Assembly (NCBI GenBank): GCA_937921555.1
Contig: CAKZUV010000172.1
Span: 1 to 41,849 of the forward strand
DNA: 41,849 nt
Direction of reading: 5' to 3'
DNA from: an uncultured Saprospiraceae bacterium
GTDB taxonomy: Bacteria; Bacteroidota; Bacteroidia; Chitinophagales; Saprospiraceae
Below are positions 31,851-34,545 of this stretch, piece by piece. The stretch's first letter is position 1. Each line of letters starts with the position of its first letter. A model generated the notes under the pieces. It saw only the letters and a program-made list of their open reading frames with translations. It did not search any database and had not been told where the DNA came from. Position numbers and translations under genes: made by a program.

Positions 31851-32273
31851 TCAGAGAATATACTTTTCTTCCAGTCTGAGTTTTACAATCCGGGCATGAA
31901 TGGCGGTTTCTGTTCTGCCTAAAATTTCGGATAGTTCGGTGAGGTTTTTTTCGTCCGCAAAATTAATTTCCAGGATTTCTTCTGCTTCTTTGGTCCAGGG
32001 TTTGGAGGCGTTTGGAAAACTTTTAAGGGTTTCTGCGTTTCGCTTTTCTTCTCCTGTTTTTTTGAAATTAATAACGGATCGCATCAGCGCCATGGAGAAA
32101 TCTTTCATCTCATTTTCAAAAACGGTAATTCCCTTGTTTCTAAATTCTCCGGTTTTATCCTTCCGGGAAATATTAATATTCAGGTAACTGGCACCTTTTT
32201 TTGTTTGTCTGATGTTAAAAAAATAAGTGCGGTCTCCGGCGGAGAAATAGTTAGAAGGTTGGGTGGTATTCAT
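31851..32273 (-). CDS. PUR-family DNA/RNA-binding protein with C-terminal helix-turn-helix
   Basis: A 140-residue protein. The N-terminal part (about 12-75; RTYFFNIRQTKKGASYLNINIS, GITVFENEMKDF) matches the PUR-alpha-like/DUF3276 fold of single-strand nucleic-acid-binding proteins in Bacteroidota. Residues about 90-140 look like a SANT/Myb-like helix-turn-helix: PWTKEAEEIL, LTELSEILGRTETAI and HARIVKLRL. It is a paralogue of the gene at 32360-32794 with the same layout. A role in transcription or nucleic-acid binding is inferred; the targets are unknown. Confidence 0.85.
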   Translation of the reverse strand: MNTTQPSNYFSAGDRTYFFNIRQTKKGASYLNINISRKDKTGEFRNKGITVFENEMKDFSMALMRSVINFKKTGEEKRNAETLKSFPNASKPWTKEAEEILEINFADEKNLTELSEILGRTETAIHARIVKLRLEEKYIL

Positions 32274-32340: not shown

Positions 32341-32361
32341 AAGAGCTTGTCTAAAATGTTT
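32339..32361 (+). repeat. Trace of the AGAGCTTGTC element
   Basis: TTAAGAGCTTGTCTAAAATG shares the left end of the element at 38514-38569. It overlaps the stop codon region of the second PUR gene and abuts the terminator. Only the left end is present. Confidence 0.35.
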
Positions 32362-32794
32362 AGAGGGTAGCAGCAGTGTACTTGGGATCAAGTTGCAGCT
32401 TTTCGATTCTGGCAATAATGGCATTTTCGTTGCGTCCCAGTTCCTGGGCAATCTCGATGATTTCCATTTCCTGCACATAAAAATCAGTCAGGGTTTTGTC
32501 TTCTGCTTTGCTCCACGGAGCGAAAGCATTGGGATATTTTTCGCGGGCTGTTTCGATGAGCGCTTCGCGGCCCGTCTGCCGGAAATTAATCATGGCCCGC
32601 ATGATTCCTTCTCCGAATTTTACGATCTCGTGTTCCATCACGGTAATTCGATCACGCTTGTAAGTTCCGTCTTCCTGCTTTTGGGTAATGTTGATGGTGA
32701 GGTAGGCGTTGCCCTTTTCAGATTGTTTGATATCAAAAAAGAAACTACGGTTACCTGATCTGATGAGTTCGGTGTGCAATGGTTTGATTTGCAT
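32360..32794 (-). CDS. PUR-family DNA/RNA-binding protein with C-terminal helix-turn-helix, paralogue
   Basis: A 144-residue protein when started at the ATG at 32794 (MQIKPLHTELIRSG); the upstream in-frame extension is AT-rich and lacks the family pattern. The PUR-like domain has RSFFFDIKQSEKGNAYLTINI and RITVMEHEIVKFGEGI; the C-terminal HTH-like part has PWSKAEDKTLTDFY, IAQELGRNENAI and IARIEKLQLDPKY. The layout matches the downstream paralogue, and the two are separated by a terminator. Single-strand nucleic-acid binding is expected from the family; the C-terminal segment suggests a DNA-binding regulator. Confidence 0.85.
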   Translation of the reverse strand: MQIKPLHTELIRSGNRSFFFDIKQSEKGNAYLTINITQKQEDGTYKRDRITVMEHEIVKFGEGIMRAMINFRQTGREALIETAREKYPNAFAPWSKAEDKTLTDFYVQEMEIIEIAQELGRNENAIIARIEKLQLDPKYTAATL

Positions 32795-32976
32795 GTTGTT
32801 GAATTTAAAAATTAGTTTGAAATAAAAGTGTCGGTACTTAGATGCTCGACTTTTAAAAATTCCATAAAATATTTTCAAAAAAAATTAAAATCCAAAAACA
32901 AAAATGTCGCAACCCACTGAATTTCAGCGAATTACGACACAATATTTTTTTCAGAAAAAACTAAATAATTTCTATC

Positions 32977-34545
32977 TTAGCGGACTACCACCAACTTCTG
33001 AGAGATTTTTTTACCATCCGTTTCCATCACGAGAAGATACGTTCCAATCGCTAAATCACTCACCTGCACCTGTGTGGCGTGGTTGCCGGCCATCTGCGCA
33101 GCGGACTGCCGGATACTTTTCACCTGCTTGCCTTCCAGCGTGTATAGTCCAAGACTGAGATCAGCCGGGGCGGGCAAGTAATAGCTGATCCGTACTTCGT
33201 CGTTGACCGGATTCGGAACCGGATTATATAATTTTACACTATTGTCAATTGCAATTTCTTCGATGTTCGTCAGCTCACCTCCAATGTCAATCAATTCGTC
33301 TCCTTCCTGATACGGCACCCAATTGAGCGCGATGATGTACATTTCATCCGTCGTACTTTCTCCCCACGTAACAAATGCAGGAGGATTGTTTGGGTTCAAT
33401 GGATTGTCAACCGTATTATCGTACGTTGCCAAAACGTGCATGACCGAGCCGCTCGGAATCTTCTGCATCCGGTCAAAAGTATAAGCCCCCTGCCAGTTAA
33501 AATCCCAATCTTCTATTTTGACCAGGTTGATCGTATCATTGGAAGGCGTCACCGCAAATACTTCCCAGTCGCGACAAAGCAAATGTGCGTGCGGATAGAT
33601 AGAAAACAAACTGATATCCTGATTGATGGGATAACGACCGTGGAAAGATTTTGTCTGATTGGGCTGCATAAAAAACTCATTCCAGCCACTTGGTAAAATA
33701 TTGGGCAAGACCAAACTCAGCTGAATGGGTCGCTCAATCGGATCACTGGATTCTTTAAAAAAGATATTCAGAGAAGACTGATCTGTTTCTTCGGTTGGCG
33801 TCGGCGCGTAGTGTACCTGTACCAGAACGTCCGCATTAGCGGGCAATATTTCCCCAATACCCTGCGGGTAACGAATCGTCTGAATACCGGGCGTGTATCC
33901 CGTACTGAAATCCGGAATACCAATACCAAAATCCCCGTAAGAAAAATAACCGTATTCGGGAGTCTGAGCATCCATGGCGGCCCCCGCTCCGGTTTCATCA
34001 AATGCGATCAAAGCATGGTGTACCACTTTCGCATTACCGGGTCGGAATTCAATCGCAGCCAGTTCGCGGTCCTGCATTTCACTGGTGGGTAAAACAAATA
34101 CCCGGTAGTCGTCTTCGTTGTTACCGGCGATGGTATAAGATTGCGACATTTCCAGTACCAGATCGGGGGTGCCGAGTTGAGAACCGTCGGGAAATTCCGA
34201 TGCGGGAGGTTCGTTGGCGGGGTCGCCCTGTGGCGTTCCATTGTCCACCCAGTTTCTGATAAGCTGGATCTCCTCGTCACTTAATCCTTTTTCTCCCACA
34301 AAAGTACTATAGTCGCGATCCGGTTTCCAGGGCGGCATATATTTTATTTCAGTTACGTAGGCGATGGTCTGGGCCCACTGGCTCACTTCCGTGTAATTGG
34401 TCAGCGGCATCGGTCCGATCTCTCCGGTCCGGTGACAGGTTGTACAATTATTGTAAATGATGGGCGCAATATCTTCACTGAAGGTTTGGGCGGTCATTAA
34501 ATTCAGGGTAAAGCAGAAAGTAAGTAATAGTATTAATCGCTTCAT
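32977..34545 (-). CDS. Secreted cytochrome c / copper type II monooxygenase-like protein with T9SS sorting domain
   Basis: A 522-residue exported protein with four parts. Residues 1-19 are a signal peptide. About 20-105 is a cytochrome c domain with heme motif CTTCH (34-38). About 125-425 resembles the copper type II, ascorbate-dependent monooxygenase fold (PHM/DBH family): His176-His177 in KVVHHALIAFD and His245 in VQVHYAP fit the first copper site, His319 and His321 in YPHAHLL and Met369 in GSVMHVLATYDNT fit the second. Residues about 436-522 are a type A T9SS C-terminal domain (NPVPNPVNDEVRISY ... GTYLLVMETDGKKISQKLVV), so the protein is exported to the cell surface. The substrate is unknown; activity is inferred from ligand conservation. 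Confidence 0.88.
   Translation of the reverse strand: MKRLILLLTFCFTLNLMTAQTFSEDIAPIIYNNCTTCHRTGEIGPMPLTNYTEVSQWAQTIAYVTEIKYMPPWKPDRDYSTFVGEKGLSDEEIQLIRNWVDNGTPQGDPANEPPASEFPDGSQLGTPDLVLEMSQSYTIAGNNEDDYRVFVLPTSEMQDRELAAIEFRPGNAKVVHHALIAFDETGAGAAMDAQTPEYGYFSYGDFGIGIPDFSTGYTPGIQTIRYPQGIGEILPANADVLVQVHYAPTPTEETDQSSLNIFFKESSDPIERPIQLSLVLPNILPSGWNEFFMQPNQTKSFHGRYPINQDISLFSIYPHAHLLCRDWEVFAVTPSNDTINLVKIEDWDFNWQGAYTFDRMQKIPSGSVMHVLATYDNTVDNPLNPNNPPAFVTWGESTTDEMYIIALNWVPYQEGDELIDIGGELTNIEEIAIDNSVKLYNPVPNPVNDEVRISYYLPAPADLSLGLYTLEGKQVKSIRQSAAQMAGNHATQVQVSDLAIGTYLLVMETDGKKISQKLVVVR

Follow-up and report, generated by a model that had tools for sequence, protein, structure and literature searches.

The window analyzed here, that is, the whole stretch of DNA under study (41,849 nt; contig CAKZUV010000172.1 of assembly GCA_937921555.1, from an uncultured Saprospiraceae bacterium), carries at positions 32977 to 34545 of the reverse strand an open reading frame whose 522-amino-acid translation joins a cytochrome c domain to a PHM/DBH-like copper domain and ends in a T9SS tail. 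The coordinates, strand, and frame given in the preliminary description are right, as are all of its residue numbers (CTTCH at 34 to 38, the His pair at 176 and 177, His245, His319-x-His321, and Met369). All parts of the protein described below are encoded on this strand. A predicted signal peptide of about 20 residues, ending in MTAQ at the presumed cleavage site (34486 to 34545), was read from the sequence and is followed by the cytochrome c domain at about residues 21 to 105 (34231 to 34485), the copper domain at residues 125 to 415 (33301 to 34173), and a T9SS type A sorting domain at residues 444 to 520 (32986 to 33216). The gene stands alone, flanked by a divergent TPR gene and, at its other end, by two DUF3276 genes, and the gene order around the fusion is the same in L012 and L018. 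The DUF3276 genes are paralogues downstream of the fusion gene (31851 to 32273 and 32360 to 32878), in an order kept in L012 and L018. Just past the stop codon, on the same strand as the gene, lies a terminator-like hairpin of 17 pairs with a T run (32904 to 32940), for which the evidence is weak because 2 such hairpins were found in the region and 2.2 were expected from shuffled sequence.

Conservation was judged in several sets of relatives. A contig search yielded 23 loci, all labeled as Saprospiraceae, Lewinella, Chitinophagales, or Bacteroidetes/Bacteroidia MAGs, and alignment A1 holds 22 of the resulting 24 sequences (window included), with the fragments L013 and L028 omitted. Of 395 Bacteroidota genomes searched with the A1 profile, 25 contain the family at E 1e-15; among 20 near relatives, PF03712 locates it in 11. 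The more diverse alignment A2 comprises 37 sequences: the window protein, 7 of the remaining 21 A1 rows, and 29 of the 36 open reading frames collected afterwards, leaving out L066 (the window itself), the close kin L034, L035, L038, and L040, and the fragments L047 and L059. L029, the most degraded paralogue, is present in A1 and absent from A2. A third alignment, A3, consists of 33 of the 37 A2 members together with L068, and the copper-domain tree was built without the near-copies L009, L010, L011, and L018. Only 21 of the 399 columns in A2 are invariant, and these include Cys34, Cys37, His38, Met70, His245, His319, His321, and Met402. The presence of the whole ordered motif set is not a matter of chance, since it does not occur in any of 20,000 shuffled versions of the sequence.

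The assignment of the N-terminal domain follows from a heme attachment motif, CTTCH at residues 34 to 38 (34432 to 34446), and from Met70 of an MPPW motif (34336 to 34338), the proposed distal heme ligand. Cys34, Cys37, His38, and Met70 are each found in all 37 A2 sequences, and the earlier reading of CTTCH as a heme c motif preceding the copper fold is thus borne out. The cytochrome models PF13442 and PF00034 match the window protein alone below their cut-offs (20.1 against 27 bits and 17.6 against 21.3 bits). Folded alone, the domain reaches a pLDDT of 84.3, and it is the least confident part of the full AlphaFold model. A Foldseek search with the domain model, which is apo, returned no significant match, and the sole match of note from VIA was the alpha subunit of hydrazine synthase (5c2v; Z 4.9, rmsd 2.1, 74 aligned residues); a weak fold match is unsurprising for a model without heme. 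Taken together, the motif, the conservation of the methionine, and the weak profile matches point to a class I cytochrome c, and the CTTCH domain is predicted to bind heme. The window's genome contains two matches to the cytochrome c assembly family PF01578.

Homology of the copper domain to PHM and DBH is not evident from the single protein, which scores 20.1 bits with PF03712 against a cut-off of 23 and does not match PF01082; in a genome-wide search, where neighboring residues in frame were included, the PF03712 match was 23.1 bits. A PDB sequence search with the single protein, or with the 22 close relatives, missed PHM. As the protein alone falls below the Pfam cut-offs and the direct PDB search missed PHM, both relatives and structure were needed to establish the relationship. 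When the A2 profile was searched, human DBH came up at E 4.8e-8 and PHM at values from 8.7e-6, and their HH, VHY, and HxH motifs lined up with those of the family. At E 0.01, PF03712 is matched by 30 of the 37 A2 members, PF01082 by 13, and PF13442 by 20. Structure prediction with superposition on PHM had been proposed as a check, and the fold expected there was recovered. The AlphaFold model (mean pLDDT 81.5, pTM 0.74) contains the two-domain jelly-roll fold of the PHM/DBH superfamily according to both Foldseek, in which rows 1 to 31 are all PHM or DBH (best E 1.8e-11, 3mll), and VIA, which aligns model residues 128 to 413 with PHM 3mih at Z 21.1 (rmsd 2.8, 255 aligned residues, 13% identity). 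The first 26 VIA rows are PHM or DBH at Z 17.8 to 21.1, and the next row drops to Z 10.2. On the basis of the family profile and the model fold, the copper part is a true PHM/DBH homologue.

The preliminary description had named six candidate copper ligands, and by its own criterion of conservation in homologues five of them stand and Met369 fails. The adjacent pair His176-His177 (34015 to 34020), aligned with the HH of DBH and PHM, is kept at each position in 35 of 37 A2 sequences, and His245 in QVHY (33811 to 33813), aligned with the VHY of both enzymes, is kept in all 37. By sequence, the adjacent pair and third histidine of CuH are thereby retained; PHM entries carrying H107A and H172A are named in their titles as lacking CuH. 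Gln243, which precedes His245 as in the LQVHY of PHM, is conserved in 19 of the 22 close relatives. For the CuM site, His319-x-His321 (33583 to 33591) aligns with the HTH of DBH and PHM, and each histidine is present in 37 of 37. The sixth proposed ligand, Met369 (33439 to 33441), is a methionine in 1 of the 37 A2 sequences and in 6 of the 22 close relatives and therefore cannot be a ligand; its place is taken by Met402 of a TTDEM motif (33340 to 33342), which is kept in 37 of 37 A2 sequences and in 21 of 22 in A1, the exception being L029 with Leu. In PHM, CuM is held by Met314, His242, and His244, and Met314 is the residue changed in the mutant entry 1yi9. The profile alignments to PHM and DBH stop before PHM Met314, as does that of a profile of the C-terminal half, which finds DBH at 0.004. 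Where a VIA row stops at model residue 411 or 412, its PHM range stops at 323 or 324, and Met402 would fall on Met314 if this stretch is ungapped. The CuM set of HxH and Met is thus kept across the family, with L029 lacking both His321 and Met402, and it appears probable that copper is bound at both the CuH and the CuM sites.

A T9SS export signal had also been proposed, and the tail exceeds the cut-offs of both relevant models: PF18962 (38 against 27 bits, E 2.1e-9) and TIGR04183 (32.7 against 23 bits, E 5.3e-8). Residues 434 to 522 of the model match T9SS C-terminal domains, those of the substrates 8glk_D, 8qb1_A, and 6za2_A, among other Ig-like folds, and the T9SS gene SprA is found in the window's genome. 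The type A tail and the translocon gene suggest that the protein is located at the cell surface. Export by the T9SS is not general across the family, since the tail is matched in just 18 of the 37 A2 members; the N termini of L062 and L067 read as lipoprotein-like.

The fusion is not peculiar to the window protein and is usual among PHM-type homologues of Bacteroidota. A PF03712 survey gave 38 matches in 35 of the 395 Bacteroidota genomes, of which 30 came with loci, and an N-terminal heme c motif is present in 28 of the 30 loci read (CX2CH with MPP in 16, CX2CH with MPLG in 4, and CX4CH with MPLG in 8). The two loci without the motif are L138, a fragment at a contig end, and L130. The CX4CH proteins with MPLG (L111, L116, L117, L122, L123, L129, L131, and L134), whose motif is, e.g., CATSGCH, include several that look like lipoproteins. 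In the copper-domain tree, the MPLG group and L130 sit on one long branch with an SH-aLRT of 100, and deeper forks are poorly supported. We withdrew the idea, drawn from a CxxCH-only pattern, that this second group is heme-less, as 12 of its 13 members carry a motif (CX4CH in 8, CX2CH in 4). Fusions of cytochrome c and PHM may also exist in Planctomycetota and Acidobacteriota. Relatives outside the phylum were looked for on plasmids, where one search gave a single PHM-like record, another none, and a third mainly thioredoxin-like matches to a fused N terminus, and a scan of viral contigs gave 111 pattern matches with no relative among them. The actinobacterial L068, from Nonomuraea gerenzanensis, has the copper motifs and lacks the heme motif; its PHM-like protein with SDEMC lies at L068:2806-3957, where the record has no annotated gene. 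With L130 and L068 both devoid of the motif, heme is not obligatory in bacterial members of the superfamily.

Many members of the family are accompanied by a second gene, the product of which is a predicted secreted thioredoxin-fold protein (AhpC-TSA/Redoxin) with an invariant cysteine and an invariant C-terminal Gly-Cys. Of the 36 family genes at 35 loci, 18 have this partner beside them, within 70 bp in 17 cases and at 1,028 bp in L022; in L075 the partner gene is on the opposite strand. At L082:6256-8055, the thioredoxin-fold, cytochrome c, and PHM domains form one protein of 599 residues, in which the partner is fused before the heme domain. The remaining 17 family genes have no partner in their vicinity, although in two cases (L023 and L076) the flanks are cut. 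The window gene has no partner nearby, and the partner is found on another contig of the same genome (E 1.1e-51, 194 aa). This unlinked homologue lies at G000:C138:1396-1890 (L089). No strong partner gene was found in the genomes of the syntenic loci L012 and L018, where the best matches are 1.2e-16 and 9.5e-18. Across the 395 genomes, the partner is detected at E 1e-30 in 14 of the 25 that have the fusion and in 20 of the 370 that lack it. When the 7 genomes that fed the partner profile are set aside, the counts become 7 of 18 with the fusion and 20 of 370 without (p 6.7e-5, with p-values for this association being too small because the genomes are related), and at 1.2e-38, a limit chosen after the scores had been seen and with the same 7 genomes excluded, 7 of 18 against 0 of 370. 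This association suggests a maturation factor or a reductant, and a thioredoxin-like partner may point to a reductant other than the heme. We do not favor a copper chaperone of the SCO type, as A4 holds neither a conserved His nor CxxxC.

The fusion gene of other lineages is clustered with SusD-like and TonB-receptor genes at 7 of the 35 loci and with FG-GAP/UnbV_ASPIC genes at 4, the Pfam names of these neighbors having been tested on L079 alone. The clusters of L078, L079, L083, and L086 contain ROK, TonB-receptor, SusD-like, thioredoxin-like, cytochrome-PHM, and FG-GAP/UnbV genes, and three of the four also have a PAP2-like gene. Such surroundings would suit an enzyme at the cell surface whose substrate is imported, which is no more than a hint.

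When these results are placed side by side, the reading we favor, with confidence somewhat above even, is that of a secreted noncoupled binuclear copper monooxygenase of the PHM/DBH superfamily that acts at the cell surface on an extracellular substrate and in which the protein's own heme, instead of ascorbate, would reduce CuH. The fused class I cytochrome, with heme attached through Cys34 and Cys37 and coordinated by His38 and Met70, would receive electrons from a donor in the cell envelope. Its heme would then reduce CuH, the task of ascorbate in animal PHM and DBH, and CuH (His176, His177, and His245) would hand on electrons singly to CuM (His319, His321, and Met402), where O2 would be activated. 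The reaction would presumably be a hydroxylation, and the proposed electron path would lead from heme to CuH and on to CuM.

The architecture alone does not fix the direction of the electrons, and fused cytochromes often serve as electron exits in secreted dehydrogenases. It is therefore conceivable that the flow is reversed, with extracellular copper sites oxidizing Cu(I) or a substrate and the heme delivering the electrons to an acceptor, as in a surface dehydrogenase or oxidase. We regard this as unlikely, given that every CuM and CuH position of the O2-activating PHM and DBH is kept and that PDB matches at Z above 11 are all monooxygenases. A peroxygenase, in which CuM would work with H2O2 in place of O2 and two electrons and the peroxide would be dealt with by the partner or the heme, seems to us less likely still. 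The conserved neighbor, with its match to AhpC-TSA/Redoxin, its invariant Cys and C-terminal Gly-Cys, and its fusion in L082, speaks for such chemistry, but its motif is ECPxC/S, which we take to differ from the active-site motif of peroxiredoxins, and the heme offers no open site for peroxide because Met70 is conserved at the distal position. There is little to recommend a protein that captures or stores copper and carries a heme without catalysis: ligands are there, and three paralogues have degraded sites, but the protein retains Gln243 and the two three-ligand sites of the catalytic enzymes, in place of additional Met/His-rich motifs. Peptide amidation by a strict bacterial PHM that hydroxylates a C-terminal glycine was rejected as highly improbable even though PHM provides the closest solved structures, because the residues that bind the peptide carboxylate in PHM (Arg240, Asn316, and Tyr318) are replaced by Tyr317, Ile404, and Ala406 (the latter two assigned by their distance from the DEM motif) in columns that vary in the family, while the cysteines for the PHM disulfides are missing except for Cys324, itself found in 6 of 22 near relatives, and the best profile match is DBH and not PHM.

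The proposed heme-driven monooxygenase can be compared with several known systems. PHM and DBH are well known, and PHM (1phm, 1sdw, and 3mih) shares with the window protein the two-domain fold and the HH plus H and HxH plus Met sites in the same order. Unlike PHM, the window protein is bacterial, has a fused N-terminal cytochrome c and a T9SS tail, and lacks the PHM disulfides. DBH (4zel) is the best sequence profile match, at the E value given above, and superposes at a VIA Z of 18.8; it has a DOMON domain in front and uses ascorbate as reductant, whereas the window protein has a CxxCH cytochrome in that place. The cytochrome domain resembles the heme domain of the hydrazine synthase alpha subunit (5c2v), with 23% identity over 74 residues and a weak profile match at E 0.031, a likeness that at a Z under 8 may be just a common arrangement. 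The window protein differs in its kept distal residue, Met70, and has no counterpart to the rest of hydrazine synthase. The Nonomuraea gerenzanensis protein (L068) is similar in its VHH, QVHY, HMH, and SDEMC motifs but has neither CxxCH nor a T9SS tail.

Two publications (PMC7435645, in its Table 3, and PMC8812541) place PHM in eukaryotes. A search of titles and abstract openings in the open literature, with most subscription journals outside its scope and hence no proof of absence, found no paper on a bacterial fusion of cytochrome c and PHM. Sequence databases may already show this domain combination.

Three paralogues bear on the role of the heme. In L029:1179-2744, L030:2195-3751, and L031:5917-7515, Arg-Ser stands for His176-His177 and His for Gln243, and the heme motif is kept. 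The HxH and EM motifs of CuM are intact in L030 and L031, His321 and Met402 are lost in L029, and the three form one clade (SH-aLRT 100). Judged by the prefix of the contig accession, a copy with all ligands is present in the same MAG as L029 (L010) and as L030 (L015). As the heme motif persists in three paralogues without His176 and His177, the heme may serve a separate purpose. It could be speculated, as a bold proposal that we would not expect to hold, that Bacteroidota possess a large, ascorbate-independent family of the PHM/DBH type with a covalent heme as the physiological donor to CuH, and that in L030 and L031 the heme replaces CuH to give a monooxygenase with one copper and one heme.

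How electrons pass from CuH to CuM over about 11 Å in PHM and DBH, and why ascorbate is needed, is a long-studied question. If the family described here indeed carries its own heme donor by natural fusion, it would provide a spectroscopic handle on single-electron delivery, and the paralogues without the His pair of CuH would be natural tests of the need for CuH.
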